A stretch of 34,962 nucleotides of DNA from an uncultured Flavobacteriaceae bacterium (GTDB lineage: Bacteria > Bacteroidota > Bacteroidia > Flavobacteriales > Flavobacteriaceae): positions 1-34,962 of the forward strand of contig CANMSA010000032.1 of NCBI GenBank assembly GCA_947500385.1, in the 5' to 3' direction. This document shows, one piece after another, positions 1 through 34,962 of the stretch. The position numbers and the translations under genes are program-made. The notes beneath the pieces were generated by a model that ran no database searches, was not told the DNA's origin, and worked only from the letters and a program-made list of their open reading frames with translations. Within the stretch, counting starts at the first letter, position 1. Each line of letters begins with the position of its first letter.

Positions 1-77
1 TTACTCCTTACTCCTTACTCCTTACTCCTTACTCCTTACTCCTTACTCCTTACTCCTTACTCCTTACTCCTTACTCC
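1..77. repeat. Perfect heptamer tandem array, TTACTCC x 11
   Basis: Eleven exact, uninterrupted copies of TTACTCC (GGAGTAA on the other strand) fill the first 77 bases and probably continue beyond the window. The array ends 18 bp past the stop codon of the kinase gene, so it lies in its 3' flank. Because the unit is 7 bp it would shift frame in coding DNA; here it is intergenic. The rotated unit AGGAGTA recurs as a single copy at 34406-34412. Confidence 0.97.
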
Positions 78-95
78 CCGCAGCAAACTGTCCTG

Positions 96-1175
96 TCAGT
101 CTATGGGTATCAGCTTTTCAACAATCATTTTTCGCATATACGCCTCCTCTTGCAATGCCTTTTCAGTAAAATGAAAAAGTCGTTGGCAACGATCCAGATT
201 TTGCAGCTCGTAGGTCACCTTATAGTATTGATCATTGTTCAAATAATCCGAAAGCGCGCGAAGGCCATGAATAAAAGGCATTAAAAAAGCGCCGATCCGC
301 AAGGTTTCCAATTCGTTCTGGTGAAGGAAGGCACCATTTAGGGCGAGTCCGTCAATAAAGGCCTCGAACAACGGTCTTTCAAAGGTGATTTTTGCCAAAT
401 CCGGGGCATCTTCACCACCTGGGTTCGAAATGATGCGAACGGCATCGCCAAAATCATATAGAAAATACCCTTTCATCAGGGTATCGAGGTCTATCAGGCA
501 CAAGGCTTTGTGGGTCTTTTGGGAGAAAAGCAAGTTGTTCAGCTTGGTATCGTTATGACACACGCGTAATGGTAGCTTCTCAAAGGAAATGGGCGAGAGT
601 TTCTCAAGGGTTTTGTGCGCAAAGGCAATGGCTTCTTTGGCGGCGTGTATTCGCTTCTTGTTGGCCGCGGCCAAAGCATCCAAGAACTGGGTTTTTCGAT
701 GGGCCAAATCATGAAAATGGGGGATGGTATCTACATAGTCTGCGGGATTCGAATTTGCCAGCAGCATATGAAATTCAGCGATTACCCTCCCGGCTTCCCG
801 GGCGATGGCAAGGTCATTTGTAGTATTATAGGCAATGCTGTTCGGAATGTAGCTCATCACCCTCCAGAAACCATGAACGGAATCTTCTAGAAAAGCAGCG
901 CCTTCTTTGGTGGGGACCAATGCGATCTGGGTGTAACGATCGCTACGAAGGTGTTCAAAAGCCCTTTGGATATTCCCCATAAGCCCCCTTACATTGGGGA
1001 ACACTTTATGGTTGATTCTTTGCAGAATATAGCGCGGTATGGTACCCTGCGAAATAAGAAAAGTATCATTGATCAACCCTTGTGTTAGAGGCTCGGAATG
1101 GTAGTCCGTTTCGGGAACATCGAACCGAGCCAATAGCTTGTTTACAATGGGAGAGGTGTATTTTCCTATTGCCAT
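96..1175 (-). CDS. N-acetylhexosamine 1-kinase-like phosphotransferase (APH fold)
   Basis: This 359-residue cytoplasmic protein belongs to the aminoglycoside-phosphotransferase/choline-kinase fold. Visible motifs are the catalytic loop HNDTKLNN (207-214), the metal-binding IDLDT (228-232) and YDFGDAVR (240-247). The N-terminal stretch YILQRINHKVFP (49-60) is what I associate with NahK-type kinases, which phosphorylate C1 of GlcNAc/GalNAc with ATP; resemblance to antibiotic kinases is only at fold level. The ATG at 1173-1175 overlaps the end of the upstream nucleotidyltransferase gene by 10 bp, so the two are almost certainly co-translated. A kinase plus nucleotidyltransferase is the expected pair for turning a free sugar into an NDP-sugar. 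The substrate is inferred, not proven; another hexose or hexosamine is possible. Confidence 0.82.
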   Translation of the reverse strand: MAIGKYTSPIVNKLLARFDVPETDYHSEPLTQGLINDTFLISQGTIPRYILQRINHKVFPNVRGLMGNIQRAFEHLRSDRYTQIALVPTKEGAAFLEDSVHGFWRVMSYIPNSIAYNTTNDLAIAREAGRVIAEFHMLLANSNPADYVDTIPHFHDLAHRKTQFLDALAAANKKRIHAAKEAIAFAHKTLEKLSPISFEKLPLRVCHNDTKLNNLLFSQKTHKALCLIDLDTLMKGYFLYDFGDAVRIISNPGGEDAPDLAKITFERPLFEAFIDGLALNGAFLHQNELETLRIGAFLMPFIHGLRALSDYLNNDQYYKVTYELQNLDRCQRLFHFTEKALQEEAYMRKMIVEKLIPID

Positions 1176-2050
1176 AAAGGGGATATATACTGCCCCTCGC
1201 TGGTTTTTTGTTCCAGGCTAGCTACGGCCACCTCCCGGTCGCTTGCATAGGTGACTCCAAACCACTGGTCTTGTGAGGGTACCACTTTCACCTCCGCCAG
1301 GCCATCTTTCAGCATTTTTTGTATGGTTTTGGGAATGTAGAGTTCACTTGTTTTGATCATATGGTCGTCTGCTAAGAACTCCCGGAATTCAGTTTCGATG
1401 ACTTCAAAAATAGAAGGTCTGCAAATCCAGAAATTCATACTGGCCAATTCATCTCCTGTATATTCCATGCCAGAGTCGGCATCGACTACTTTATCGCCTT
1501 TTTGCTCCAATTTCAAACGCTCGTCCACTGAAATTAGATTATCCCCATCCGTCATACAAACCCCACGAGAAACAGAACCATGTTCGGAGAGGGTGTCTTT
1601 TAAAGTGTATCCCACTAGGGCATAGTGGTTGTCTTCGGTAAACTCTTGCATAAATTTCGCGGCATTGGCATAGGCCGATTGTCCGTAAAAGTCATCGGCA
1701 TTGATGACGCAAAAAGGGCCATCGATCACGTTTCTTGCGGTCCATACCGCATGGGCGGTACCCCAAGGCTTGGGCCGTTCGCCCGTAAATTCAACCCCGT
1801 ACGGGAGATCGGTAATTTCTTGGGCGAGTACACTTAATTTGATCGCTTCGGGAAGTCGTTCTTCAAGGTGTTCCTGCAAAAAAGCAACATTTTCTTTTTT
1901 TGTAATGACTACAATATGGCCAAATCCGTTTTTAATGGCATCGTACATCGCGAATTCCATCAGGAATTCCCCTTGCGGTCCGAGGTCATCAAATTGCTTT
2001 AGTTTTCCATATCTGCTCCCGCTTCCTGCGGCCATTAAAAGTAAGGTCAT
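1166..2050 (-). CDS. Sugar-1-phosphate nucleotidyltransferase
   Basis: This 294-residue protein is of the NTP_transferase (GT-A-like Rossmann) family, which joins a sugar 1-phosphate to a nucleotide and releases pyrophosphate. The signature LMAAGSGSRYGKLKQ occupies residues 5-19, PWGTAHA (95-101) matches the base/sugar-binding loop, and INADDFYG (116-123) carries the metal-binding aspartates. It stops after the catalytic domain, lacking the left-handed beta-helix acetyltransferase domain of GlmU. It is the first gene of a two-gene minus-strand unit, overlapping the kinase start by 10 bp. Paired with that kinase it plausibly makes UDP-GalNAc/GlcNAc. A generic glucose-1-phosphate transferase role is the alternative; sequence alone does not settle the sugar or nucleotide. 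Confidence 0.85.
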   Translation of the reverse strand: MTLLLMAAGSGSRYGKLKQFDDLGPQGEFLMEFAMYDAIKNGFGHIVVITKKENVAFLQEHLEERLPEAIKLSVLAQEITDLPYGVEFTGERPKPWGTAHAVWTARNVIDGPFCVINADDFYGQSAYANAAKFMQEFTEDNHYALVGYTLKDTLSEHGSVSRGVCMTDGDNLISVDERLKLEQKGDKVVDADSGMEYTGDELASMNFWICRPSIFEVIETEFREFLADDHMIKTSELYIPKTIQKMLKDGLAEVKVVPSQDQWFGVTYASDREVAVASLEQKTSEGQYISPLWQ

Positions 2051-2070
2051 GCTATTATAATTTTAAGTTG

Positions 2071-2078
2071 CAAAAGTA
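2071..2078 (-). promoter_or_regulatory. -7 promoter box (TACTTTTG) for the nucleotidyltransferase-kinase unit
   Basis: CAAAAGTA on the plus strand reads TACTTTTG on the minus strand, a full match to the Bacteroidota -7 consensus TAnnTTTG, 20 bp before the ATG at 2050. No clear -33 TTTG is seen at the usual spacing, so this is a moderate call. Confidence 0.5.
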
Positions 2079-2168
2079 AGTGATTGATTTAAAAAAATGG
2101 AATGCTCACCTTTACTTTCCGATAAAAATTGGAATCGAAAGACAGGCAAGCAAAGATTTTCATAAATT

Positions 2169-2180
2169 AACCAAATGGTT
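2169..2180. promoter_or_regulatory. Palindrome AACCA-AA-TGGTT in the divergent spacer
   Basis: A perfect 5-bp inverted repeat with a 2-bp centre lies in the 171-bp spacer between the divergent nucleotidyltransferase and GH109 genes, 41 bp before the GH109 ATG. Position and symmetry suit a repressor or activator site for a sugar-responsive regulator, but no regulator gene is adjacent. The spacer holds no ORF. Confidence 0.35.
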
Positions 2181-2221
2181 TTATACCTGTAACAGCTGCC
2201 AACCTAATAAATTGTATCCCT

Positions 2222-3580
2222 ATGAGTTCTAGACGAACATTTATTCAAAAATCGGCCCTACTAGGAGCCGGTATCGCTACCGTTCCCAACTTTGGCTATG
2301 GTATGTTCAATGTGCGGCCAAACGATATGTTGAATGTAGGATTAATAGGAGTTGGGTTACGCGGTACGAATCATCTAGAGAACCTTTTATTGCGAAAAGA
2401 TGTAAATGTTACTGCTATTTGCGACGTAGATCCCACTAGAATTGCAATTGCCAAAGATTTGATTGCCAAGGCCGGAGGCAAAACACCCGCTGCTTTTGGT
2501 AGTGGTGATTTCGATTACCGAAATTTATTGGCATCGAAGGATGTGGATGCAGTAATCATTGCAACCCCTTGGTTATGGCATACCCGCATGACCGTCGATG
2601 CCATGAAGGCAGGAAAATATGCGGGGGTCGAAGTGTCTGCTTCGAATACGCTAGAGGAGTGTTGGGACCTGGTGAATACCCATGAAGCAACCGGTACCCA
2701 TATGATGATACTTGAAAACGTAAACTATCGCAGGGATATTTTGGCGGTGTTGCATATGGTAAAGCAAAACGTTTTTGGGGAATTGGTACATTTTAGATGT
2801 GGATATCAGCACGATTTGCGGGAAGTAAAATTCAACAATGGGAAACAACCCTACGGGGGTGGGGTCGAGTTTGGTGAGAAGGCTATTTCCGAAGCCAAAT
2901 GGCGCACGGAACATTCCGTAAAGCGAAATGCCGATGTATACCCCACTCATGGCTTGGGGCCCATTGCGGCCATGGCCGATATCAATCGAGGCAACCGTTT
3001 TGTTTCGATGACCTCCCATGCAAGCAAGGCTATTGGGCTACACAATTATATCGTTGAAAAAGGAGGGGAAGACCATCCCAATGCCAAGGTGAAATTCAAA
3101 CAGGGCGATGTGATTACCTCCACCATCAATACAGCCAATGGGGAAACCATCATCATAACCCATGATTGCAATCTGCCCAGACCCTATTCCCTGGGATTTC
3201 GGGTGCAGGGTGCCAAGGGCCTTTGGGAGAATGACGGAGATCGAATCTATATCGAAGGAAGCTCGAAAGCACATAGATGGGATGCCGATGCCGAATGGCT
3301 TGCCAAATATGACCATCCGTTATGGAAAAAGTACGGGGACTATGCATTGGATGCCGGCCATGGCGGGATGGATTTCTTCGTGATCAACTCGTTTGTCGAA
3401 TCGGCCAAGGCGAATATTGCACCTCCTATGGATGCCTACGATGCCGCTGCCTGGAGCGCTGTGACCCCATTGTCCGAAGCTTCGATTGCCAACAATGGTG
3501 ACCCACAAGATTTTCCTGACTTTACACGCGGACTTTGGATCAAACGAAGCCCGTATAATTGGATCAAGGATACGTATTAA
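2222..3580 (+). CDS. GH109-type NAD-dependent glycosidase, probable alpha-N-acetylgalactosaminidase, Tat-exported
   Basis: This 452-residue Gfo/Idh/MocA-fold protein has a twin-arginine signal (SSRRTFIQKS, residues 2-11, then a hydrophobic stretch), so export to the periplasm is expected. The Rossmann glycine motif is GLIGVGLRG (40-48). Recalled side by side, it shares many segments with the founding GH109 enzyme of Elizabethkingia meningoseptica: EECWD, ENVxYRRD (about 165-172), FGELVH, GYQHDLR, GVEFGEKA, SEAKWRT, YPTHGxGP (240-247, with the catalytic-region Tyr and His) and DINRGNR. GH109 enzymes use bound NAD in an oxidation-elimination-addition cycle to remove terminal alpha-GalNAc. The divergent kinase/nucleotidyltransferase and downstream symporter fit handling of the freed sugar. 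GH109 paralogues with other specificities exist, so the exact substrate is less certain than the family. Confidence 0.88.
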   Translation: MSSRRTFIQKSALLGAGIATVPNFGYGMFNVRPNDMLNVGLIGVGLRGTNHLENLLLRKDVNVTAICDVDPTRIAIAKDLIAKAGGKTPAAFGSGDFDYRNLLASKDVDAVIIATPWLWHTRMTVDAMKAGKYAGVEVSASNTLEECWDLVNTHEATGTHMMILENVNYRRDILAVLHMVKQNVFGELVHFRCGYQHDLREVKFNNGKQPYGGGVEFGEKAISEAKWRTEHSVKRNADVYPTHGLGPIAAMADINRGNRFVSMTSHASKAIGLHNYIVEKGGEDHPNAKVKFKQGDVITSTINTANGETIIITHDCNLPRPYSLGFRVQGAKGLWENDGDRIYIEGSSKAHRWDADAEWLAKYDHPLWKKYGDYALDAGHGGMDFFVINSFVESAKANIAPPMDAYDAAAWSAVTPLSEASIANNGDPQDFPDFTRGLWIKRSPYNWIKDTY

Positions 3581-3800
3581 AGAATCCGTTTGGGATGCAC
3601 ATCCGCGACCAAAAATCACAGCTTTTATGGTCAAATCAAAGCTTTTTAAAGGAATCGCCAGGCCATTGAAGAAAAAAAGACAAAATGGGAAGACAAAATG
3701 TAAAAATCGGAGGTAAAAACGGACAGTGAGATAAGTTTCTTTAGAAGCACTAGGATAAGGGCATTTTGAAAAACGAACAAAACCAACTAAACACTATTTC
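3581..3800. other. Gene-free spacer before the symporter
   Basis: This 220-bp spacer contains an imperfect hairpin at 3607-3632 (GACCA arm, TGGTC arm, with AAA/TTT pairing inside) that might be a weak terminator for the GH109 gene but lacks a proper T-run, and two direct copies of AGACAAAATG at 3678-3687 and 3691-3700. No convincing promoter or ORF is seen. Confidence 0.5.
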
Positions 3801-5426
3801 ATGAAAGGACTCGATACATTTGACTGGGTGGTTATTGCCGCTTATTTTATCATCCTGCTGGGCGTTGCTTGGTGGGTCATCAAACAAAAACAAAAAAACA
3901 CCGAAGACTACTTTCTTGCAGGTCGCAATATGGGCTGGTTTGTAGTGGGGGCTTCGATTTTTGCCTCCAATATCGGTTCCGAGCATGTGGTAGGTCTTGC
4001 CGGGAATGGTGCAGGGGATAAGATGCCCTTGCTTATTTATGAATTGCACGCCTGGATCGTATTGATGCTTGGGTGGGTCTTTTTGCCCTTTTATGCCCGT
4101 AGCGGCGTTTTTACGATGCCCGAGTTTTTAGAAAAAAGATTTGATGCCCGATCACGTTGGGTGCTTTCAGTGGTTTCCTTGATCGCTTATATACTCACCA
4201 AAGTATCGGTGACTATTTATGCCGGGGGGGTGGTCGTTTCTGCCTTATTGGGAATTCCCTTTTGGATCGGAGCGGTAGCGACGGTGGCTTTGACGGGAAT
4301 CTACACGGTGTTGGGAGGCATGCGTGCAGTGGTCTATACCGAAACCATACAAGCCATTGTGTTGGTCATCGGCGCGGGAGTATTGACTGTCATGGGCTTG
4401 GATGCCGTAGGCGGTTGGGGAGCCTTAAAAGAGACCGTGGGGGCCGACTATTTTAATATGTGGCGGCCCAATTCAGATCCCGACTACCCGTGGTTGCCCT
4501 TGTTTTTAACCAGTACCATTGTGGGTATTTGGTACTGGTGTACCGATCAAGTGATCGTGCAACGCGTTTTAACGGCCAAGAATATCAAAGAAGGAAGAAG
4601 GGGCAGTATTTTTGGGGCCTTGTTAAAATTGATGCCGGTCTTTTTATTTTTGATTCCCGGGGTGGTGGCCTTGGGTCTAAAAATGCAGGGAAAATTAGAT
4701 TGGGACAGTCCGGATGAAGCGTTTCCCGTGTTAATGAGCAATCTGTTGCCCTCGGGACTTCGGGGATTGGTAGCAGCGGGATTGTTGGCGGCCTTGATGA
4801 GTTCTTTGGCCTCTGTTTTCAACTCCTGTTCTACCTTGTTTACCCTGGACATCTATAAGAAGGTAAAACCGAACAAACCAGAGGAGGAATTGGTAAGGAC
4901 AGGCCGGATCGCTACCTTTTTTGTGGTAGGGCTAGGGCTTCTATGGATTCCCGTCATCACGCGCTTATCCGATGGCTTGTATGAATACCTGCAGAATGTA
5001 CAAGCCTATATTTCCCCTCCGATAACGGCGGTATTCCTGTTGGGGATTTTTTACAAACGAATCAATGCAAACGGGGCGATCGCAACACTGGTAGGTGGTC
5101 TGATCATTGGTTTTTCCAAACTGACTTTGGAAATCACCAAGTCGAGTTATACCGAGGGAAGTTTCATTTTTAATATAGCCGATATCAATTGGCTGGTATT
5201 TGGCGCCTATTTCTTTGCGATATGTGTGGCCATCGCCGTAACGGTGAGTATGTTTTATCCCAAACCCTCGGAAGCGCAATTGCAGGGACTTACTTTTGGA
5301 ACAGTCACTGCCGAGCAAAAAGCGGCGAACAAATCGAGCTACAACATTTGGGATATTGTTGCCTCGGTACTGGTCATTGTAGTGGTGCTTTACATCATGC
5401 TCTCGTTTAGTACCCTGGCGCTTTAG
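3801..5426 (+). CDS. Sodium:solute symporter family (SSS, SglT-like) sugar transporter
   Basis: This 541-residue polytopic inner-membrane protein belongs to the SSS family (TC 2.A.21), which couples Na+ entry to solute uptake. Family landmarks are the first membrane helix at about 9-27, DYFLAGRNMGWFVVGASIFA (36-55) and SNIGSEHVVGLAG (56-68), the segment that forms the unwound helix around the sodium and substrate site. About 14 hydrophobic segments can be counted. The sequence is closest in style to SglT-type sugar transporters rather than proline or pantothenate carriers. It lies 220 bp after the GH109 gene on the same strand, so the likely cargo is the sugar that enzyme releases; this is inferred from context. 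The ATG at 3801 gives a normal-length N terminus. Confidence 0.9.
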   Translation: MKGLDTFDWVVIAAYFIILLGVAWWVIKQKQKNTEDYFLAGRNMGWFVVGASIFASNIGSEHVVGLAGNGAGDKMPLLIYELHAWIVLMLGWVFLPFYARSGVFTMPEFLEKRFDARSRWVLSVVSLIAYILTKVSVTIYAGGVVVSALLGIPFWIGAVATVALTGIYTVLGGMRAVVYTETIQAIVLVIGAGVLTVMGLDAVGGWGALKETVGADYFNMWRPNSDPDYPWLPLFLTSTIVGIWYWCTDQVIVQRVLTAKNIKEGRRGSIFGALLKLMPVFLFLIPGVVALGLKMQGKLDWDSPDEAFPVLMSNLLPSGLRGLVAAGLLAALMSSLASVFNSCSTLFTLDIYKKVKPNKPEEELVRTGRIATFFVVGLGLLWIPVITRLSDGLYEYLQNVQAYISPPITAVFLLGIFYKRINANGAIATLVGGLIIGFSKLTLEITKSSYTEGSFIFNIADINWLVFGAYFFAICVAIAVTVSMFYPKPSEAQLQGLTFGTVTAEQKAANKSSYNIWDIVASVLVIVVVLYIMLSFSTLAL

Positions 5427-5489
5427 TAAGGCAGTAGAAGTGGCCAGCATAAAAAGGTGGCTTGCCGCAATTTTAAAAGGTGTTTTTTC

Positions 5490-5505
5490 GTTGTTAGAGA
5501 ACAAC
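5490..5505. promoter_or_regulatory. Perfect palindrome GTTGTT-AGAG-AACAAC upstream of the Usp gene
   Basis: Two 6-bp arms are separated by 4 bp. It ends 9 bp before a near-consensus -7 box (TATTGTTG, 5515-5522), so it would lie between -33 and -7 of the promoter. The core TGTT-N4-AACA is shared with the palindrome at 9213-9230. Confidence 0.5.
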
Positions 5506-5514
5506 TCGAAAGTG

Positions 5515-5522
5515 TATTGTTG
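5515..5522 (+). promoter_or_regulatory. Probable -7 box for the universal stress protein gene
   Basis: TATTGTTG differs from TAnnTTTG at one position and lies 20 bp before the ATG at 5543, the short leader typical of this phylum. Confidence 0.4.
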
Positions 5523-5542
5523 AATTAATAAGAGCGTATTTC

Positions 5543-6364
5543 ATGAAAAACATTATTGTACCCGTAGATTTTTCCGAACAATCCGAATATGCCTTGCAAA
5601 CGGCCGCATCGCTTGCCAAAGAACATGGGGCGAACTTGCTTACGGTGCATATGCTCGAACTGTCGGATGCGATATTTTCTACCACCGATACTGCAAGTGC
5701 GCAACAAGCGGTTTTTTTGATCAGGGCTGCGGAGAAAAGATTCGCTGCTTTTTTGGACAAAGACTATTTGGGAGGGGTCTCAATCACGAAAATCGTGAAA
5801 CCGCACAAGGTGTTTGCCGAATTGAACAATATCGCGAAAGAACATGGGGCCGATCTGATCGTTATGGGTTCGCATGGAAGCGACGGACTTGAGGAAATAT
5901 TCGTTGGTTCAAACGCAGAACGGGTCGTGCGCAATTCGGAGATACCAGTAGTGGTGGTGAAACAGAAACATACCGATTTTAAAGTGGAACGCTTTTTATT
6001 TGCCTGTGATTTCGAAGATGAAAGCCTCCCCGCTTTTCAAAAGGCCAAATCTTTTGCAGCGCTATTATCGGCCGAATTGCAATTGGTATATATCAATACC
6101 CCCGGCGATGCTTTTCTGAGCAGCAGCGATGCCTATAACCGAGTGCACCAATTTTTACAAAAAGCCTGCTCGGGCTTGGAGGTGACCATTCATAACGATT
6201 ATAGTGTGGAAAAGGGTATTTTGAATTATAGTAAAATCGCTTCTGCGGATGCTATTGGTATTCCTACCCACGGCCGCAGTGGTCTTGCGCATTTCTTCCG
6301 AGGCAGTATCGGCGAAGATGTCGCCAACCACGCAAAGATTCCCGTTGTCACGTTCAAAATATAA
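5543..6364 (+). CDS. Universal stress protein, tandem UspA domains
   Basis: This 273-residue cytoplasmic protein has two Usp domains (about 1-142 and 147-273). The first starts with the typical beta strand NIIVPVDFSEQSEYAL and has the ATP-binding loop MGSHGSDGLEEIFVGSNAERV (starting near 108, pattern G-x2-G-x9-GS). The second ends with a related loop PTHGRSGLAHFFRGSIGEDV (about 245-264). Usp proteins bind ATP or sense metabolic stress; no specific partner can be read from the sequence. It follows the symporter gene by 116 bp with its own probable promoter and a palindrome, and is convergent with the next gene, 47 bp apart with no clear terminator between. Confidence 0.9.
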   Translation: MKNIIVPVDFSEQSEYALQTAASLAKEHGANLLTVHMLELSDAIFSTTDTASAQQAVFLIRAAEKRFAAFLDKDYLGGVSITKIVKPHKVFAELNNIAKEHGADLIVMGSHGSDGLEEIFVGSNAERVVRNSEIPVVVVKQKHTDFKVERFLFACDFEDESLPAFQKAKSFAALLSAELQLVYINTPGDAFLSSSDAYNRVHQFLQKACSGLEVTIHNDYSVEKGILNYSKIASADAIGIPTHGRSGLAHFFRGSIGEDVANHAKIPVVTFKI

Positions 6365-6411
6365 TAACGCCCGCAATTCCCAAAAGATTTGCCAGGCGGT
6401 AGCGCAATAGA

Positions 6412-7803: not shown

Positions 7804-7876
7804 GGTCCCCGGTTTTCAATCTAGAAGTGGTTTAAAATCGTTTAGCCAAATGAAAAAGTCGACTATATTTTTAAAA

Positions 7877-7884: not shown

Positions 7885-7986
7885 CCATGAATGTACGCTT
7901 TTTCTGCATGGATGCCAAGATGCGGGCAATGGTAAAATGCAGCTGCTAGAAGACAGGTGTCCGGTTTTTTATAGGCAGGTACTTTC

Positions 7987-23556: not shown

Positions 23557-24111
23557 TTGTCGAGCGAAAAAATCATATTGGGAATTGACCCTGGAACCAC
23601 GATCATGGGCTTTGGGTTGATCAAGGTGGTGAACAAAAAAATGGAGTTTCTGCAGATGAACGAGTTGTTGCTTAAAAAGTACAGCGACCCGTATACAAAG
23701 CTTAAGTTGATTTTTGAACGAACCATCGAATTGATCGATACCTACCATCCCGATGAAATTGCCATTGAAGCCCCTTTTTTTGGTAAAAATGTGCAGTCGA
23801 TGCTGAAGTTGGGACGTGCCCAAGGGGTTGCAATGGCGGCCGGACTCTCAAGACAAATTCCGATCACCGAATACTTGCCCAAGAAGATAAAGATGGCGAT
23901 TACCGGAAACGGAAATGCAAGCAAGGAGCAGGTCGCCAAGATGCTGCAAAGTTTGCTGGGGCTCAAAACGCTGCCCAAAAATTTGGATAGCACCGATGGG
24001 CTCGCCGCCGCGGTCTGTCATTTCTACAATGCAGGGCGTGTACAGGTCGGTACAAACTATTCGGGTTGGGAGGCCTTTGTGAAACAGAACGATAAACGGG
24101 TTAAGAAGTGA
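23557..24111 (+). CDS. ruvC: Crossover junction endodeoxyribonuclease RuvC
   Basis: This 184-residue Holliday-junction resolvase cuts four-way DNA junctions after RuvAB branch migration. All four catalytic acids are present: Asp11 in GIDPGT, Glu71 in IAIEAPFF, Asp144 and Asp147 in LDSTDGLAAAVCH. The start codon is TTG (23557), as no in-frame ATG precedes the first catalytic strand and the family N terminus fits exactly. ruvA and ruvB are not nearby. The upstream 80-bp spacer is of the low-complexity TTTG-rich type seen elsewhere in this window. Confidence 0.95.
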   Translation: MSSEKIILGIDPGTTIMGFGLIKVVNKKMEFLQMNELLLKKYSDPYTKLKLIFERTIELIDTYHPDEIAIEAPFFGKNVQSMLKLGRAQGVAMAAGLSRQIPITEYLPKKIKMAITGNGNASKEQVAKMLQSLLGLKTLPKNLDSTDGLAAAVCHFYNAGRVQVGTNYSGWEAFVKQNDKRVKK

Positions 24112-24125
24112 ATGTAAATGAGTTC

Positions 24126-24145
24126 GCAGTAGCAGTGAGCAGTGA
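24126..24145 (+). repeat. Short heptamer tract upstream of the four-helix-bundle gene
   Basis: One GCAGTA and two GCAGTGA units follow one another directly between ruvC and the four-helix-bundle gene. Related inverted units lie just after that gene (24538-24565). Confidence 0.6.
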
Positions 24146-24167
24146 CCTCCAGTATAAACTACGGAAA

Positions 24168-24536
24168 ATGGGATTTCAAGATCTACTAGCATACAAAAAA
24201 TCTTTTTTATTGGCGATGAAGGTTTTTGAGGTTTCAAAAACCTTTCCCAAGGAAGAGAAGTATTCGTTAACGGACCAAATAAGGCGCTCTACAAGAAGTG
24301 TAAGTGCAAATATTTCCGAGTCATATCGCAAGAGGAGATATCCAAAGAACTTTATTAGCAAACTTACGGATGGTGATGCAGAAAATTCAGAGACACAAAC
24401 ATGGTTGGAGTTTGCTTTGGCATGCCAATATATTGACGAGAAGGTATTTTATGAATTACGTAAAGACAGTGAAGAAGTAGGAAAGCTAATTAATTATATG
24501 ATAAACAACCCAGAGAAGTTCGGCGTAAAACTTTAA
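24168..24536 (+). CDS. Four-helix-bundle protein (S23 / 23S rRNA intervening-sequence protein family)
   Basis: I start at the ATG 24168 (MGFQDLLAYKKSF), giving 122 residues; the open frame reaches a GTG at 24108, but that part overlaps ruvC's end and a repeat tract. The family pattern is clear: FQDLLAYKKSFLLAMKVFEVSKTFPKEEKYSLTDQIRRSTRSVSANISES with the conserved QIRRSTRSVSANISE, then FISKLTDGDAENSETQTWLEFAL and a final Glu-rich helix. Members form pentameric or bundle structures; roles are mostly unknown, with links to rRNA intervening sequences and, in the Avd branch, to diversity-generating retroelements, none of which is present here. It is bracketed by heptamer repeats in inverted orientation, and its AT-richer sequence differs from the neighbours, suggesting an inserted cassette. 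Confidence 0.87.
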   Translation: MGFQDLLAYKKSFLLAMKVFEVSKTFPKEEKYSLTDQIRRSTRSVSANISESYRKRRYPKNFISKLTDGDAENSETQTWLEFALACQYIDEKVFYELRKDSEEVGKLINYMINNPEKFGVKL

Positions 24537-24537
24537 G

Positions 24538-24565
24538 AACTGCCAACTGAAACTGTCATCTGATT
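24538..24565 (-). repeat. Inverted heptamer tract downstream of the four-helix-bundle gene
   Basis: Four 7-bp units in phase (AACTGCC, AACTGAA, ACTGTCA, TCTGATT) start two bases after the stop. Read on the minus strand they include TTCAGTT followed by GGCAGTT, almost the same as the start of the tract at 30826 (TTCAGTT, GGCAGTA). Confidence 0.6.
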
Positions 24566-24572
24566 ACTTAAA

Positions 24573-27151: not shown

Positions 27152-27166
27152 AAATGCCTTCTACAC

Positions 27167-27565: not shown

Positions 27566-27567
27566 CG

Positions 27568-28089: not shown

Positions 28090-28104
28090 AAATCCATAAG
28101 AGCA

Positions 28105-28461
28105 ATGAATATAGAAGCGTTTAGAGAATACTGTATCAACAAAAAAGGGGTCACCGAAGAATTCCCCTTTGATGCGCATACCTTAGTGTTCAAAGTAATG
28201 GGCAAAATGTTCGCTTTGGCGGGTTTGGAAAGGCTTCCGCCTCAAGCAAACCTAAAATGCGATCCGGAGCGTTCGGTCGTATTAAGAGAAGAATACGATG
28301 GTGCTATTATTCCGGGTTATCATATGAGTAAACTGCATTGGAATACCGTTATTCTAGAACAGTTGCCACCAAAGTTGATTATGGAATTGATCGATCATTC
28401 CTATGAATTGGTGGTTTCGAAATTTACCAAGAAGTTAAAAGCTACCTTCGACAGCTTATAA
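28105..28461 (+). CDS. MmcQ/YjbR family protein
   Basis: This 118-residue protein is the CyaY-like double-wing fold family MmcQ/YjbR: N-terminal FREYCINKKGVTEEFPFDAHTLVFKVMGKMFAL, then NLKCDPERSVVLREEY and the C-terminal HWNTVILEQLPPKLIMELIDHSYELVVSKF with the conserved K/H-W-N/x motif. DNA binding is suggested for the family but the role is not established. It lies between the GNAT and DinB genes with 15 and 7 bp gaps. Confidence 0.9.
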   Translation: MNIEAFREYCINKKGVTEEFPFDAHTLVFKVMGKMFALAGLERLPPQANLKCDPERSVVLREEYDGAIIPGYHMSKLHWNTVILEQLPPKLIMELIDHSYELVVSKFTKKLKATFDSL

Positions 28462-28468
28462 ATATCGT

Positions 28469-28942
28469 ATGCAACATAAAATAAAGAAAGTGATCGGAAA
28501 TCTCAAAGAATACTTTGAGGGAGAACCATGGTACGGCGTCGCCATTATGAATACCTTGGAAGCACTGGATTGGGAAAAAGTAAACGAGCGGCCTATGAAC
28601 TTAAAGTCTATTGCAGTTTTTGTGCAGCATCTGATCAACTGGCGCATTTTTGTGGTCAAGAAACTGGAAGGGGATGCCGCCTATGATATCAAAATAGATA
28701 GTGTAGAAGATTGGACTCCCATACATATCAAGAATGAAATGGAGTGGGAGCAACTGAAAAATGCACTACGGCAAACACAATTTGACATGGTACGTATTTT
28801 GGAGCGTTCAAACGAACAACTTTTAGAAAAGAAGGTTCCTGGGAAAGCGTATGATTTTGAATCGCTGCTTGTTGGTATTTCGCAGCATGACATTTATCAC
28901 TCCGGGCAAATAGCATTGCTTAACTCTCTTAGTAAGACCTGA
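28469..28942 (+). CDS. DinB-like superfamily protein
   Basis: This 157-residue four-helix protein has the three histidines expected of a DinB/YfiT metal site: His54 (VQHLINWR), His140 and His144 (SQHDIYHSGQI). The family includes thiol-dependent transferases (bacillithiol or similar) and many uncharacterised stress proteins; the name comes from a damage-inducible gene and does not imply the DNA polymerase. It ends 42 bp before the MutS-like gene, which has its own promoter box. Confidence 0.87.
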   Translation: MQHKIKKVIGNLKEYFEGEPWYGVAIMNTLEALDWEKVNERPMNLKSIAVFVQHLINWRIFVVKKLEGDAAYDIKIDSVEDWTPIHIKNEMEWEQLKNALRQTQFDMVRILERSNEQLLEKKVPGKAYDFESLLVGISQHDIYHSGQIALLNSLSKT

Positions 28943-28951
28943 ACAAAAAAC

Positions 28952-28959
28952 TATCTTTG
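28952..28959 (+). promoter_or_regulatory. -7 promoter box TATCTTTG for the MutS-like gene
   Basis: A full TAnnTTTG match 25 bp before the ATG at 28985; TTAG stands 19 bp upstream as a weak -33 element. Confidence 0.5.
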
Positions 28960-28984
28960 CGCTCCTAAAAGCAGTGATATCCCT

Positions 28985-30757
28985 ATGGAGGAACTCCACC
29001 AATTTTATGCTGATCAACTTGCCAAGTACAATGCACAACTGGCAAGGGTAAAAGAGCAATTATTCGCCTCTAGTATGGTACGCTTGCTTGTTTTTTGTGC
29101 GGTCGCCTTGGGGGTTTATCTACTTTTAGACCATACGAAGTGGTTGGTGGCCTTTGTTCTACTTGGTATTGCAACCTTTCTTTTTCTGGTGGCCCGACAT
29201 ACAGATCTTCAACATAAACGAGATAAATTAAGAGCACTTTCCAATATTAACACCACCGAGATGCGGGTGTTAAGACGGGATTTTCATGACCTTGCAGATG
29301 GCAGTACCTACCAGGATTCAGGGCATTTCTACAGTCAAGATGTAGATCTTTTTGGCAAAGGCTCTTTCTATCAGTATATAAATAGAACGGCCTTGCAACA
29401 AGGAAGTGATGCCCTGGCAAAGCTCTTGCTTTCCAATACAATTGAAGATATCGTTCAGAAACAGGAGGCGGTCAAAGAATTGGCAAAAGTTCCGGAATGG
29501 CGGCAGGAGTTTTCGGCGATTGCTTCGCTTACAAAGACGGAAACTAGTACCCATGCGATTGTTCGCTGGATATCCGATTATAATTCTTTTATCCCAGCGA
29601 TGATGAAGTGGCTTCCCTTCGCTTTTTCAGGCGCATCAATACTGTTGTTTGGCCTGTACTTTCTCGGTAGTATCTCGGGTATTTTTCCGTTTTTATGGGT
29701 CTTTGTGGGCTTGGGGGTGTCGAGTATGTTTACCAAGAAAATAGGTAGGTTGGGTAGGCACGCTTCCAAAATACATAGTACGTTTCGACAGTATAACAAA
29801 TTGCTGGTACTTATAGAAGAACAATCGTTCGTTTCACCCTTACTACGTTCCAAACAGGCTTTGATCATGCACCAGGAGGAGAAAACTTCACAAGTGCTGA
29901 AAACGTTTTCCCGTTTGTTAAATGGCCTTGATAAGAACAACAATGTCTTTTATCTGATCTTGGCCAATGGTTATTTTCTGAGAGGATTGCATTACAGTTA
30001 TCAGGTGGAGCAATGGATCGTAACCTATGGCAGTGCTGTGGAAAAGTGGTTCGATACCGTCGCGTTTTTTGATGCGTACAATAGTTTGGGAAATTTTAGT
30101 TTTAACCACCCCAATTACGCTTTCCCGGAGATAGTTGACACCGGTAGTATCCTACATACGACACAAGCAGGGCATCCGTTGTTAGACCCTGAAAAGAGCG
30201 TCTGCAACGATTTTAAAATAAACCAAGAGCAGTTTTTTATTATCACAGGGGCGAATATGGCAGGGAAAAGTACCTTTTTACGAACGGTTTCGTTGCACAT
30301 TGTAATGGCCAATATGGGGCTGCCCGTTTGTGCCAAAAAAACGGAGTATACGCCTATAAAACTGATTACAAGTATGCGCACGACCGATTCGCTAACCGAT
30401 GATGAATCGTACTTTTTTTCCGAACTGAAACGACTGCGCTTTATTGTGGATGAAATTCAAAAGGACCGTTACTTTATTGTACTCGATGAAATTTTGAAAG
30501 GTACCAATAGCACTGATAAGGCAAAGGGTTCGCGTAAGTTCGTAGAACGGTTGGTAAGTTCTAGATCAACCGGAATTATTGCGACACATGATTTAAGTCT
30601 TTGCGAAGCTGCCGAAGAATGGCCCCAAATAAAGAATCACTATTTTGATGCCGAGATAATTGAGGACGAATTGCATTTCGATTACCGATTTAAGGAAGGT
30701 ATTTGCCAGAATATGAACGCCTCTTTTCTCTTGAAGAAAATGGGAATTGTGGACTAA
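28985..30757 (+). CDS. Membrane-anchored MutS-family ATPase
   Basis: This 590-residue protein has the MutS ATPase domain at its C terminus: Walker A TGANMAGKST (421-430), Walker B YFIVLDEI (496-503), the STDKAKG trans-acting loop (about 509-515) and the ATHD H-loop (533-536). It lacks the N-terminal mismatch-recognition domain of MutS. Instead it carries two hydrophobic pairs, about 32-49/53-71 and 208-228/231-247, predicting membrane anchoring with the ATPase in the cytoplasm, and a helical lever-like middle (about 260-370). Such MutS relatives are common in Bacteroidota, are not mismatch repair proteins, and have no settled role. It has its own promoter box 25 bp upstream. Confidence 0.87.
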   Translation: MEELHQFYADQLAKYNAQLARVKEQLFASSMVRLLVFCAVALGVYLLLDHTKWLVAFVLLGIATFLFLVARHTDLQHKRDKLRALSNINTTEMRVLRRDFHDLADGSTYQDSGHFYSQDVDLFGKGSFYQYINRTALQQGSDALAKLLLSNTIEDIVQKQEAVKELAKVPEWRQEFSAIASLTKTETSTHAIVRWISDYNSFIPAMMKWLPFAFSGASILLFGLYFLGSISGIFPFLWVFVGLGVSSMFTKKIGRLGRHASKIHSTFRQYNKLLVLIEEQSFVSPLLRSKQALIMHQEEKTSQVLKTFSRLLNGLDKNNNVFYLILANGYFLRGLHYSYQVEQWIVTYGSAVEKWFDTVAFFDAYNSLGNFSFNHPNYAFPEIVDTGSILHTTQAGHPLLDPEKSVCNDFKINQEQFFIITGANMAGKSTFLRTVSLHIVMANMGLPVCAKKTEYTPIKLITSMRTTDSLTDDESYFFSELKRLRFIVDEIQKDRYFIVLDEILKGTNSTDKAKGSRKFVERLVSSRSTGIIATHDLSLCEAAEEWPQIKNHYFDAEIIEDELHFDYRFKEGICQNMNASFLLKKMGIVD

Positions 30758-30941
30758 AAAAGTGCAAGCGCAAGTATCAAATTCAAGACCAAGAGGAATA
30801 AAAAGGCGTTGATCAGGGGGTAGTATTCAGTTGGCAGTAGGCAGTAGGCAGTACTCAGTATTTAGTGTTAGTTGGTTTTGAATTTGTTGTTTGTATTTGA
30901 ATTTAATGCTCGCACTTGATATTCGAACTTGAACTTGATAA
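30758..30941. repeat. Repeat-filled spacer with 7-bp periodic tract and TTTGAA-rich tract
   Basis: Eight consecutive 7-bp units run from 30819 to 30874: GGTAGTA, TTCAGTT, three exact GGCAGTA, CTCAGTA, TTTAGTG, TTAGTTG. They are followed (30876-30940) by a hexamer-like tract rich in TTTGAA, TTTGTA, ACTTGA and two direct GAACTT units, running up to the ATG at 30942. No ORF or promoter is apparent. Confidence 0.8.
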
Positions 30942-31943
30942 ATGGATTCACTTACGCAAATTGTATTAGGCGCTTCGGTAGGGGAGGCGGTGTTGGGGAA
31001 AAAAGTCGGTAATAAGGCCCTTTTATACGGGGCGATTGCGGGGACTATTCCAGACCTGGATGTTTTGGCCAGATCCTTGACCGATACGGTGACCGCTATT
31101 GAATGGCATCGGGGTTTCAGCCATTCGATTGTTTTTAGCGTGGTATTTGCACCCTTGTTCGGTTGGCTGGTTTGGAAACTGCACCGGGGTAGGGAGGCCA
31201 GCTGGAAAGATTGGTCCTGGTTATTCTTCTGGGGGTTGTTCACCCATCCCATACTAGATGCATTTACCACTTGGGGTACGCAGTTGTTCTGGCCCTTTGA
31301 CCTGCGCTTGGCTTTTCAGAATATTTTCGTAATAGACCCTTTGTATACGGTACCCTTTTTATTGTTTGTGGTGCTGGCAATGTGCTACAAACGTACTTCC
31401 CCGAAAAGAAGAAAGTACAATCGCTTGGGTTTATTGGTGAGCAGTTGCTACCTATTGGTTACCCTGATATTAAAGGGAATGGCCTATATCAAATTTACCG
31501 ATGGCCTAACGGAACAGGGAATTGTATACCAACAAATAGACACAAGGCCGACGCCCATGAATGCTTTGCTCTGGACCGCCAATATAGAGGCGGGAGACGC
31601 CTACCTGATCGGGAATTATTCATTCTTTGATACGAGCCCCATCCAGTTTTCTACCTATCCCAAAAATCATCATTTGTTAGGGACATTGGAAACAAATGAT
31701 AAGGTGAATCGTCTCATAACCATAGCAGAGGGTTGGTATACGATTAGCAAAAAAGAAGACCGTGTGTTTTTTAATGATCTACGGTTCGGTCTCATAAGTA
31801 TCGATCCCCAGGAAACACAGTTTGTATTCAGTTATGAATTGATTCCCTCGGCAACCGGCATTTCAGTAGAAGAAACCCCCAAATTCGACACGGATGCCAA
31901 ACGTCTTTTAAGTTCTTTGTGGAATAGGATTTGGGGAAACTAA
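30942..31943 (+). CDS. YdjM/LexA-binding-like inner-membrane metal-dependent hydrolase
   Basis: This 333-residue protein starts MDSLTQIVLGASVGEAVLGKKVGNKALLYGAIAGTIPDLDVL, the family hallmark, with the metal-site motif WHRGFSHSIVFS (about 55-66) and FFWGLFTHPILDAFTTWGTQLFWPF (about 94-118). Several membrane helices follow (to about 175), and a soluble C-terminal half that is periplasmic or cytoplasmic. Members are annotated as membrane-bound metal-dependent hydrolases (DUF457/YdjM); substrates are unknown. It is followed after 10 bp by a DUF998 gene. The ATG stands at the end of a repeat tract, so its leader may be made of repeat sequence. Confidence 0.88.
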   Translation: MDSLTQIVLGASVGEAVLGKKVGNKALLYGAIAGTIPDLDVLARSLTDTVTAIEWHRGFSHSIVFSVVFAPLFGWLVWKLHRGREASWKDWSWLFFWGLFTHPILDAFTTWGTQLFWPFDLRLAFQNIFVIDPLYTVPFLLFVVLAMCYKRTSPKRRKYNRLGLLVSSCYLLVTLILKGMAYIKFTDGLTEQGIVYQQIDTRPTPMNALLWTANIEAGDAYLIGNYSFFDTSPIQFSTYPKNHHLLGTLETNDKVNRLITIAEGWYTISKKEDRVFFNDLRFGLISIDPQETQFVFSYELIPSATGISVEETPKFDTDAKRLLSSLWNRIWGN

Positions 31944-31953
31944 ATTTGTTTGC

Positions 31954-32574
31954 ATGCGATTTATTCTTTTTTTAATAGGGACACTGGGCGTACTTCTTTT
32001 TGTAGGCACCAGTATCTGGGCGGGAGTTCAAATAGAAGGGTACGACCCGGTTTCACAATTTATAAGCGAAAGTTATGCGAACGGGATACCAAATGCCCCT
32101 GCCCTTCAAAAGGTTTTTATGATCTCGGGCATATTTCTTGCCGGCTTTGGTTTCATGGCTCCGATCGGCCTCCCTTCCAGTAAAAGGCTAAAGATGTACT
32201 TTGTTTTGTTCGCCTTGTTCTATGGTGTGGGTACGATAGTGACGGGGTACTTTCCCTGCGATTTGGGATGTGTGCTGGATACCGAAAACCCGTCTATTTC
32301 CCAGTTGATACACAATACCATGGGCTTGCTCACCTATGTGGTGGTGCCTTTCTGTCTGCTTGGCATAGGGGTAGAATTGAAAAAAAAGGACGATGCCTCA
32401 AAATTACCGGTGGTTTCACTCATATGTGGTAGTGTATCATTGGCTTTTGTAGTATTTTTATTTGGAAACCCCGAAGGCCCTTTTATCGGTTTGTTTCAAA
32501 GAATCGTAGAGGGAAGTATTTTGAGCTGGACGTTGTTTTGCGCCAGCCTTTTTATAAGATCATCCAAAACCTGA
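31954..32574 (+). CDS. DUF998 family membrane protein
   Basis: This 206-residue polytopic protein shows about six membrane segments: near 3-23, 54-73, 79-99, 121-140, 151-170 and 181-200. The sequence YDPVSQFISESYANG (30-44) and the CDLGC pair (101-105 region) match the DUF998 pattern (conserved S-x-SEY and a Cys-rich loop). Function is unknown. It starts 10 bp after the YdjM-like gene and ends 4 bp before the DUF5060 lipoprotein gene, making a probable three-gene operon. Confidence 0.85.
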   Translation: MRFILFLIGTLGVLLFVGTSIWAGVQIEGYDPVSQFISESYANGIPNAPALQKVFMISGIFLAGFGFMAPIGLPSSKRLKMYFVLFALFYGVGTIVTGYFPCDLGCVLDTENPSISQLIHNTMGLLTYVVVPFCLLGIGVELKKKDDASKLPVVSLICGSVSLAFVVFLFGNPEGPFIGLFQRIVEGSILSWTLFCASLFIRSSKT

Positions 32575-32578
32575 AACT

Positions 32579-34420
32579 GTGAAAAACCGTTATTTTCTCT
32601 TATCCAGCCTTTGCCTTCTCGTTTTATTCGTAGCCTGTAACGAGGAAAACAAGGAAGTTGTTGCGCTGGCCAGCCACATGCAGTGGCATACTGTTGAGCT
32701 CTCGTTTGAAGGACCCATGACCTCCGAAGCGGCTTCGGAAAATCCCTTTTTAAACTATCGGTTATTGGTAGAATTGAAGCATGCCGAAACCAGTTATACG
32801 GTTCGTGGTTTTTATGCCGCAGATGGCAAGGCCGGGGAAACAAGTGCGGCTTCCGGTGGGGTTTGGCAAGCCCGTTTTACGCCGGATAAACTAGGGGAAT
32901 GGACCTATTCGGCGGTCTTACAACAAGGAGATTCCATCGCTTTAAAAGACGATTCTTACGAGGGAAAACCAGTAGAAATTACCAATCAGGAAGGGGCCTT
33001 TACCGTAGGGCCATCGAACAAAAAGGCACCCGATTTTCGAAGTAAAGGCCGGTTGGTCAGTTCGAATGGTTATTTTAGGTTTGGTGAAAATGGCGAATAT
33101 TGGATCAAGGGCGGGGCCGACAGTCCTGAGAATTTACTGGCTTTTGAAGGTTTTGATGGTACATATCGCATGCAGCGTTCCGATGACGATGGCGAAGCGA
33201 GAACGAATGATACCATACACAGTTTTAAGCCGCATTTAAACGATTGGAGAGAAGGAGATCTTACATGGCAGGGTGGCAAAGGAAAAGGATTGGTAGGTGC
33301 CTTGAATTATTTGTCTTCCAAGGGTATGAACGTGGTTTATTTTTTAACTATGAACATTAATGGGGATGGGAAAGATGTATGGCCTTATGCAGATCCAAAT
33401 GATTTTAGCCGCTTTGATGTGAGTAAACTGGCGCAATGGGAAATGGTTTTTCAACACATGCAATCAAAAGGATTGATGTTGCATATGGTATTGCAGGAAA
33501 CGGAGAACGAAACCCTATTACATGGTGGAGATACGGGGCCGTTACGACAATTGTATTTTCGGGAATTAATGGCGCGTTTTGGACACCATTTGGCCCTGAA
33601 GTTTAATTTGGGAGAGGAGAACGGTCCGGCCGATTTTTCTCCCATTGCCCAGAACGACGCACAGCGAAAAGCGATGACCTCTTTTATTAGTGCGATAGAC
33701 CCTTATAACCATCCTATTCTGTTACATACGCATTCGCATGAACCGGCGCGTAGCAATGTACTTGATTCGATTGTTGGTTTTAAGGCATTGGACGGACTTT
33801 CCCTGCAAGTAGATTTGCGGGAAGGGGCTTCAGATGTCGTAGCCGATTGGAAGAACAAATCGCAGGCCGCTGGCCATGATTGGATGATTACGATGGATGA
33901 GATCGGGATGTGGCATACAGGGGCGGTTCCGGATTCGGTAACCCCAGAACACGATAGCCTCCGGAAGTACGTACTTTGGGGAACTTTGTTGTCGGGTTCT
34001 GCAGGGGTGGAGTGGTACTACGGTGCCCGCAATGTGTATAATGATTTGAATACCGAAGACTGGCGTACTACCGACCGCCTATGGGAGTTGACACACCATG
34101 CTATGCAGTTTTTTGAACAGTATTTGCCGTATTGGGAAATGCAACCGGATCACAGTTTAATCAACACAAAAGATGGCTACTGCTTTCGAAAAAAGGGAAC
34201 GGTCTACGCTGCGTATCTGGCAGTTCCTCAGGGAGGGCACACGATTGACTTGGAAGGGGAAACCGGTACGTTCACCGTAAAATGGTACGATCCCTTGCAA
34301 GGAGGAGCACTACAAGAAGGAACTGTTCAAGAAATAAACGGAGGAACCGCGCAAGAGTTAGGGTTGCCGCCAAATTCAAAAAAGCAAGATTGGGTGGTGT
34401 TGGTAAGGAGTATTAAGTAA
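32579..34420 (+). CDS. DUF5060 glycoside-hydrolase-like lipoprotein
   Basis: This 613-residue protein begins with GTG (32579), 4 bp after the DUF998 stop; this start yields a full lipoprotein signal, KNRYFLLSSLCLLVLFVAC with the lipid Cys at 20. Domain order is DUF5060 beta-sandwich (about 35-145: WHTVELSFEGP, FYAADG, WQARFTPDKLGEWTY), a TIM-barrel glycoside-hydrolase domain (about 155-520) and a C-terminal beta domain of the collagen-binding-like type found with DUF5060 and DUF4038 proteins (about 525-613). Probable acid/base and nucleophile are Glu346 (FNLGEENG) and Glu441 (TMDEIG). It should act on a polysaccharide at the outer membrane or cell surface. No SusC/SusD genes are near, so no classical PUL context. 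The last codons enter a heptamer repeat tract. Confidence 0.85.
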   Translation: MKNRYFLLSSLCLLVLFVACNEENKEVVALASHMQWHTVELSFEGPMTSEAASENPFLNYRLLVELKHAETSYTVRGFYAADGKAGETSAASGGVWQARFTPDKLGEWTYSAVLQQGDSIALKDDSYEGKPVEITNQEGAFTVGPSNKKAPDFRSKGRLVSSNGYFRFGENGEYWIKGGADSPENLLAFEGFDGTYRMQRSDDDGEARTNDTIHSFKPHLNDWREGDLTWQGGKGKGLVGALNYLSSKGMNVVYFLTMNINGDGKDVWPYADPNDFSRFDVSKLAQWEMVFQHMQSKGLMLHMVLQETENETLLHGGDTGPLRQLYFRELMARFGHHLALKFNLGEENGPADFSPIAQNDAQRKAMTSFISAIDPYNHPILLHTHSHEPARSNVLDSIVGFKALDGLSLQVDLREGASDVVADWKNKSQAAGHDWMITMDEIGMWHTGAVPDSVTPEHDSLRKYVLWGTLLSGSAGVEWYYGARNVYNDLNTEDWRTTDRLWELTHHAMQFFEQYLPYWEMQPDHSLINTKDGYCFRKKGTVYAAYLAVPQGGHTIDLEGETGTFTVKWYDPLQGGALQEGTVQEINGGTAQELGLPPNSKKQDWVVLVRSIK

Positions 34421-34440
34421 GAAGTAGTCAGTAATTGGTA
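34406..34440 (+). repeat. Heptamer tract crossing the DUF5060 stop codon
   Basis: Five 7-bp units in register: AGGAGTA, TTAAGTA, AGAAGTA, GTCAGTA, ATTGGTA. The first two encode the final residues and most of the stop codon; the first unit equals the unit of the 1-77 array. Confidence 0.55.
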
Positions 34441-34591
34441 TTTGAACTTGCTCGGATGAAAGACAAAAGGACTTAGGACAAAATGACTTAAGATGTAGTA
34501 CGTATGTGGTCTAGATGGGGCGTCAGGTAGTCGGTTCTGTGTTTGAATTTGACATTTGTGTTTGAATTTATTTTTTTGTCTTTGTTCTTTT

Positions 34592-34633
34592 AAGCAGTTC
34601 CTCGACAGGCCTGTCCTGAGTGAAACCTCAGGG
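34592..34633. repeat. REP-like palindromic element, copy 1
   Basis: It contains the perfect 12-bp palindrome GACAGGCCTGTC (34604-34615) followed by a hairpin CCTGAG (34615-34620), loop TGAAAC, CTCAGG (34627-34632). Nearly the same 42 bases return at 34846-34887. Confidence 0.75.
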
Positions 34634-34862
34634 CTCGGACTCACGGTTGATTTTTCATTTGGCAATGGGATAAAAAGGAACGCTATTGTCACGCTGAGTC
34701 CTGTCGAAGCGCATTTCGATTGTCTCCTGGACAAGCTCGGAGGGACAGCATTTTTTACATTTGACGATCCTAGCTTGAATTTGACGTTTGCGCCTTAATT
34801 TGTTTTTTCGTCCTACGTCTTTGCTCTTTTCGTCTTTTTTCTTTCAAGCAGGTCCTCGACAG

Positions 34863-34962
34863 GCCTGTCCTGAGTGAAACCTCAGGGCCTGTCCTGAGTG
34901 AAACCTCAGGGCCTGTCCTGAGTGAAACCTCAGGGCCTGTCCTGAGTGAAACCTCAGGGCCT
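34863..34962. repeat. 24-bp tandem repeat, four full copies plus a partial one
   Basis: Units begin at 34863, 34887, 34911, 34935 and 34959 with no visible differences. Each starts GCCTGTCCTGAG and ends CCTCAGG, so each holds a CCTGAG-TGAAAC-CTCAGG hairpin. The array runs off the window. Confidence 0.93.

Follow-up and report, generated by a model that had tools for sequence, protein, structure and literature searches.

The degenerate 7-bp tandem tracts that recur along contig CANMSA010000032.1 of an uncultured Flavobacteriaceae bacterium probably belong to elements of the intervening sequence (IVS) type, in which an IVP/S23 gene is situated between inverted arms of degenerate 7-bp units that are private to the cassette. 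The stretch analysed, in the following termed the window, comprises 34,962 nt and is the entire contig C32; the draft genome has a size of 6.03 Mb and consists of 123 contigs. One such cassette is located in the window, between ruvC and hemW, and the other tracts are arrays without a gene; most likely, all of them represent IVS-type arms, complete or orphaned. The same architecture was observed across many phyla as well as within a 23S rRNA gene, together with a match between the two arms of a locus, turnover at one orthologous site, and an association of arrays with IVP genes.

The cassette between ruvC and hemW

In a reading of this stretch based on the letters alone (hereafter the sequence-only reading), the tracts starting at 24126 and 24538 were treated as separate sites. 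They are located on opposite strands and face each other across a 23S_rRNA_IVP gene which had been missed, and since this pair brackets such a gene, the tracts are tied to a known family of elements. A profile search with the longer open reading frame (ORF) 24108-24536 gave a PF05635 match of 7.1e-31, above the cut-off, and relatives of the protein in PDB are 2rld (1.4e-10) and 2gsc (5.4e-7). With Avd, the accessory protein of diversity-generating retroelements, the window protein shares a sub-threshold bAvd match (4.8e-9, 37.1 bits versus a cut-off of 40; 40.9 bits for the orthologue in G008), but the neighbours of its gene are ruvC and hemW. Due to this position outside the 23S rRNA, the cassette was classed as an intergenic relative of the rRNA IVS. 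For the left arm, Tandem Repeats Finder (TRF) reported the unit GCAGTGA with 3.0 copies and 7% indels at 24126-24145, where reading of the sequence reveals one step of 6 bases among the heptamers, and for the right arm it called a period of 13 at 24538-24563 (unit AACTGCCAACTGA).

The ruvC-hemW spacer was compared in ten genomes of the same genus. An open orthologous IVP gene occurs in G000, G003, G004, and G008, with AGT-type arms that differ by genome, whereas the gene contains stops in the read frame in G002 and is reduced to a decayed remnant flanked by arms in G009. G007 carries a different PF05635 protein (2.3e-27) with CAATNNN arms, and in G001 the contig edge follows CAAT heptamers. 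In G006 no IVP is present in this spacer, and in G005 the hemW YIHIP motif is reached after 29 bases, which include the heptamer scrap GCAGTGAGCACT; no target-site duplication, as expected of a MITE-like or transposable element, was defined from these two genomes. The arm scores (upstream arm against inverted downstream arm) of the elements at this site are 11 for the window and 24, 23, 20, 13, and 13 for the others. Among four intact orthologues (that of the window compared to three), dN is 0.20-0.26 and pS 0.77-0.94, i.e., synonymous sites are near saturation. The IVP protein is therefore under purifying selection while its arms turn over.

Arms of IVP genes across genomes and phyla

Six PF05635 genes over the cut-off are present in this genome. 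By eye, all six have period-7-like tracts close to the gene, mostly inverted and with differing units; in case of the gene on contig C14 the tract is closer to a 6-7-base TTTGAATTTG. No array was found around any of them by a strict detector (CAGT at spacing 7 or 14), since other cores are in use and the phase is broken. In G000, two IVP genes (L043 and L045, C3:53064-55012) are located approximately 1.3 kb apart, each with AAAGAC-type heptamer flanks, and L043 precedes a thiolase-like start, as do 16 other loci.

In a sample of 120 genomes of the family, 89 contain PF05635, and in a sample of 296 genomes of the phylum 232 do, this genome being contained in both samples. Periodicity was determined for 126 Bacteroidota loci from 67 genomes, composed of the 6 own loci, the 60 best-scoring ones and 60 from multi-copy genomes. 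Flank identity at lags of 7, 14, and 21 is 0.384, 0.351, and 0.339 upstream and 0.372, 0.350, and 0.331 downstream, compared to approximately 0.285 at other lags and to 0.307 at lag 7 in 45 control spacers. The score of an upstream arm against an inverted downstream arm averages 15.4 within a locus, versus 9.7 if the partner is taken from another IVP locus in that genome, 9.8 from a different genome and 9.2 after shuffling (P 1.5e-27), and the arm's own partner is the best match in 61.8 of 80 cases (expected 21.0). The two ends of a copy thus tend to share a heptamer that is private to this copy. Single-locus tests by shuffling (p<=0.01) were passed by 73 of the 126 loci for periodicity, by 61 for inversion and by 86 for either. 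The purine content of the flanks is mixed (43 loci left-rich and right-poor, 13 the reverse, 60 rich and 10 poor on both sides), and thus no simple strand rule emerges.

With Xanthomonas XCC0516 as query, the best 80 of 578 confirmed loci were taken from a collection of named genomes of many phyla, of which 79 entered the arm scoring (one flank was too short) and 78 the single-locus tests (another one contains N). Identity at lag 7 is 0.419 and 0.423 in the two flanks, the own arm score is 16.4 versus 8.6 across loci (P 2e-24), and 60 of the 78 loci pass either test. Two of the loci are labelled Methanophagales archaea. In L261, from a metagenome-assembled genome that is labelled as a Methanophagales archaeon after its bin, CCGCTAA / ACCTCTG-type heptamers follow the IVP relative, and the flanks mismatch each other (score 6).

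A tblastn search of plasmids with the window protein matched 48 records (best 56% identity), which among the matches listed are mostly from Nostocales, and 8 of the 12 plasmid loci examined pass one single-locus test. Heptamer arms were observed at four-helix-bundle genes of cyanobacterial plasmids. On a plasmid of Azospirillum lipoferum, an IVP gene with heptamer arms is located inside a bacterial large-subunit rRNA gene (1708 bits); this locus is an rRNA IVS with heptamer arms. Two plasmid copies are situated at CRISPR-associated genes, between cas10 and cmr3 in Picosynechococcus (L185, 989-1345, inverted arms, score 17) and just past cas1-cas2 in Pseudanabaena (L187, 977-1366, without inverted arms, score 7).

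The Xanthomonas IVP genes L211 and L212 have arms of the GGGAATC type, the same unit as that of the GGGAATC repeats which were reported as abundant and unexplained in this genus, and for which 70 and 75 convergent pairs were counted (Rehm et al. 2015, PMC4692102). The genome of L211 contains 188 tandem GGGAATC pairs (control: 0). On its contig 1, all 6 array neighbours at most 400 bp apart are convergent, in the same order as around the IVP genes, a count which covers the contig-1 places among 100 listed of the 188. PMC4692102 treats GGGAATC as G-quadruplex simple sequence repeats, and its text does not mention S23, four helix or XCC0516.

Of the 89 IVP-positive genomes of the family, 42 contain CAGT arrays, compared to 2 of the 31 IVP-negative ones (P 1.7e-5, by a statistic that ignores kinship), with 944 versus 3 matches. 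Considering the 89 genomes of at least 2.7 Mb and at least 90% completeness, the proportions are 37 of 74 and 2 of 15 (P 0.008). Furthermore, for cross-genome pairs among 218 loci without detected homology of the flanking genes, the likeness of the arms (GC-matched cosine) rises with IVP identity from 0.143 (<25%) to 0.259 (>65%, from 17 pairs; 0 of 500 permutations), in line with joint travel of the arms and their gene. Where short flanks have hidden orthology, the top identity bins could be inflated.

Heptamer tracts of the window and their abundance

Coordinates of the tracts and of the IVP gene are listed in Table 1. TRF and reading of the sequence bear out the period-7 tracts reported by the sequence-only reading, including the 11 exact units at 1-77 (11.0 copies, 100%), the three exact GGCAGTA (located at 30833-30853) and the occurrence of AGGAGTA in the last tract. 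The copy number at 1-77 is a minimum, because the contig end cuts the array. TRF gave the unit CAGTAGG at 30822-30860 and 30828-30853, and a period of 14 at 34403-34434. All tracts had been considered intergenic, which fails for 34403-34434, as this tract overlaps the end of an ORF that stops at 34420.

Table 1. Heptamer tracts and the IVP gene of the window.
Feature	Position	Strand	Basis and remarks
Solo array (GGAGTAA)x11	1..77	(-)	TRF: TTACTCC x 11.0, 100% (reverse complement GGAGTAA)
Left cassette arm, made of degenerate heptamers (GCAGTAGCAGTGAGCAGTGACCTCCAGT)	24122..24152	(+)	Sequence and TRF
Four-helix-bundle (23S_rRNA_IVP, S23) gene, 122 aa from the ATG at 24168	24168..24536	(+)	PF05635
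Right arm, inverted, ACTGCCAACTGAAACTG..; reverse complement CAGTTTCAGTTGGCAGT	24538..24571	(-)	Sequence and TRF; cores predicted to pair with those of the left arm in the RNA
Solo array, five CAGT in 7-base register, degenerate units around	30819..30874	(+)	TRF and count; variable in relatives
Solo degenerate array, AGTANNN-like	34403..34440	(+)	TRF score 43; overlaps the end of ORF 32579-34420

The spacer of the 30822 array was compared in those 9 of the 10 same-genus genomes in which the downstream gene is present. As in the window, five CAGT in 7-base register occur in G008 (one unit being TAGT) and G004, three are present in G007, and no array was seen by eye in G001, G002, G006, and G009. 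Next to this array, a degenerate TTTGAATTTG / CTTGAACTTGA tract is situated at 30878-30940 upstream of a YdjM-like gene; at the corresponding place in G003, a contig ends in a pure (CTTGAAC)n array. The assembly of C32 breaks in repeats at both ends, the right end being formed by 4.2 error-free copies of the 24-bp unit GGCCTGTCCTGAGTGAAACCTCAG (34862-34962, TRF), and a stretch related to this unit occurs at approximately 34600-34640.

Abundance was compared to chance in two ways. Genome-wide, (CAGTNNN)x4 matches 109 times (39+70), versus 1 match (1+0) for the reversed control. In the window, 3 non-overlapping period-7/14 arrays with a TRF score of at least 40 were obtained, whereas 40 dinucleotide shuffles gave a mean of 0.17 and a maximum of 1. 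A single genome-wide population of degenerate heptamer tracts, as had been proposed, is thus far above chance. Its density is patchy, as 200 kb of contig C3 taken without selection contain one period-7 array of score at least 40. A survey of 421 kb, composed of the window and 20 stretches of which 10 were picked for holding arrays, yielded 55 arrays, 50 of them intergenic by a crude ORF call; solo arrays were found in mixed orientation to genes, including both orientations between same-strand genes.

In 42 of 54 arrays, half or more of the units have AGT, on either strand, in the same phase, while 12 arrays have other units. CAGT matches were also obtained in 15 of 39 relatives. In G001, however, the reversed control of TGACNNN type is about equal to CAGT (16 versus 17 matches), and in G107 it exceeds CAGT by far (163 versus 19); judged from these patterns, the control matches point to further heptamer families in both genomes. 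Of the supposed constants, length 7 and an AGT core, the length is therefore the firmer one, and AGT is the commonest core and not the sole one.

Origin of the tracts and relation to known repeats

Several observations weigh against the assignment of the tracts to IVS-type elements. In the window cassette, CAGT heptamers face each other by eye and the CAGT cores of both arms pair in the predicted RNA fold, yet the arm match is weak (score 11, the weakest of the six elements at ruvC-hemW) and the predicted stability does not exceed that of shuffles (z -0.41). Most of the IVP loci used are top-scoring ones and not a random draw, and neither single-locus test was passed by 40 of the 126 Bacteroidota loci, by 18 of the 78 loci of many phyla and by 4 of the 12 plasmid loci. 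Control spacers pass the periodicity test in 5 of 39 cases for the Bacteroidota (39 of the 45 spacers being used), in 6 of 24 nearby spacers for the many-phyla loci and in 1 of 2 for the plasmids. The pairing of the arms has no excess of G-U mismatches (G-U 99, A-C 155; fraction 0.39 versus 0.44 between genomes), and thus selection on an RNA stem is not supported. The association across family genomes counts a single heptamer type, CAGT, along with its neglect of kinship. No movement of a cassette was observed directly. No IVP gene was seen in the nine orthologous spacers of the 30822 solo array, and a cassette origin of solo arrays is therefore suggested solely at the ruvC-hemW site. Finally, in a comparison of 17 IVP loci in the fad operon, the likeness between arms of closely related IVPs is greater than that between the two ends of a single cassette. 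Arms are therefore inherited over short times, and concerted change is not shown at that scale. The within-cassette match is 13.7 in this operon, versus 8.0 between downstream arms of IVPs with less than 50% identity (P 3e-5), a difference that may be due to replacement of whole cassettes and not to concerted change; upstream-arm comparisons contain conserved coding sequence.

The absence of an adjoining IVP gene from most arrays seen in this genome, as well as the variation of copy number and unit among relatives, would be in good agreement with plain replication slippage, the explanation quoted in PMC4679880 and PMC4692102: a 7-bp unit suits polymerase slippage in any spacer, and the IVP genes would be there by coincidence. 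We regard this as unlikely, since it does not explain why inverted pairs private to one locus flank IVP genes, why control spacers are less periodic, or why arrays go along with IVP genes across genomes. Even less probable is that heptamer arrays came first and served as landing sites into which IVP genes inserted. Different IVP proteins in the same ruvC-hemW spacer and the existence of solo arrays without IVP fit such an order of events. Insertion into a direct array, however, predicts flanks of the same orientation, whereas the inverted score exceeds the direct one (15.4 versus 11.4, P 1.8e-10), and arm sequence tracks the relatedness of the IVPs. In a few loci (L216, L115), the flanking heptamers are by eye direct or near-direct, or the units near-palindromic.

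Selection on the arrays as regulatory sites for translation or protein binding, as proposed for TAACTGA repeats by MacGregor (2015, PMC4679880), is in line with their mostly intergenic position. We consider it very improbable as an account of the tracts, because units, copy number and presence differ among genomes of the same genus and both array orientations occur between same-strand genes. The earlier proposal that one process may make or homogenise the heptamer tracts is tentatively favoured.

How the tracts form and spread we infer as follows. The arms of an IVS-type element would lengthen and shorten by 7-base slippage, and they may be kept alike by fold-back copying between them or may have been laid down jointly when the cassette was founded. 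In the transcript they would pair as a stem cleavable by RNase III, like published rRNA IVSs, so that the insert would be tolerated inside operons and rRNA. The IVP protein, under purifying selection, presumably binds the arms and thereby aids spread or persistence of the cassette. Arrays without a gene would be leftovers of cassettes that lost the IVP gene, or would be made in trans. The proposals on how the arms are kept alike and on the role of the protein are tentative, and as worded here we give them somewhat less than an even chance.

The 23S rRNA IVSs with an S23/IVP ORF of Leptospira, Coxiella, and Brucella (PMC4990558) consist of a PF05635 gene between inverted arms; the window cassette has such a gene, between facing arms that match weakly. 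Unlike these IVSs, the cassettes described here are situated between protein-coding genes, occur several times per genome and have a different heptamer each. On its 5' side, the Coxiella IVS contains tandem heptamers GACAGAT in two or three copies depending on the strain, and a 28-bp stem is reported for this IVS as well. PMC4990558 describes the excision of IVS RNA by RNase III in Coxiella and cites it for further rRNA IVSs. The same source attributes to Ralph and McClelland (1993) the view of the IVS as a mobile element whose ORF serves mobility, and states that, although more than 25 years have passed since rRNA IVSs were discovered, their function and origin are still unclear.

Among heptamer repeats, TAACTGA was described in Cyanobacteria and printed for five Bacteroidetes genomes including Gramella, Aequorivita, and Elizabethkingia (PMC4679880), and in light of this source the supposition that no such family had been described in Flavobacteriaceae needs qualifying. 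TAACTGA reads TCAGTTA on the other strand and therefore has a CAGT core. These repeats and the short tandemly repeated repetitive (STRR) sequences of cyanobacteria are intergenic heptamer arrays, as are those found here. In PMC4679880 no link to IVP is drawn, with S23, four helix and intervening unmentioned.

As in STRR-bearing cyanobacteria, many degenerate 7-bp tandem arrays are located in the spacers of this genome. The suggested likeness to cyanobacterial heptamers is supported by the arms of the four-helix-bundle genes on cyanobacterial plasmids, but by eye the units differ from those of the STRR sequences.

In the open-licence PMC literature, no link of IVP, S23 or four-helix-bundle genes to heptamer repeats was found among the matches listed, and the nearest published statement among these concerns heptamers of variable number within the IVS of Coxiella (PMC4990558). 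Taken singly, IVSs, S23 proteins and heptamer repeats are all known already. A cassette with mirrored heptamer ends may be a link between families of repeats that have so far been described one by one in unrelated bacteria. It is tempting to go further and to regard IVP genes as the protein part of a very widespread class of selfish element with private, self-renewing heptamer ends, which are written or copied on both sides and maybe seed arrays elsewhere. The heptamers of Cyanobacteria, Xanthomonas, Beggiatoaceae, and Bacteroidetes would then all be its traces and the 23S rRNA IVS its best-known copy, a generalisation that we think possible and, on balance, rather doubtful.

Linking IVSs with the heptamer repeats of several phyla, so far separate puzzles, gives each of them a concrete partner. 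It predicts that a gene and its arms are moved, altered and lost jointly. A further suggestion from this link is that genes annotated as “four helix bundle protein” between operon genes may be cargo of an element and not members of the operon.

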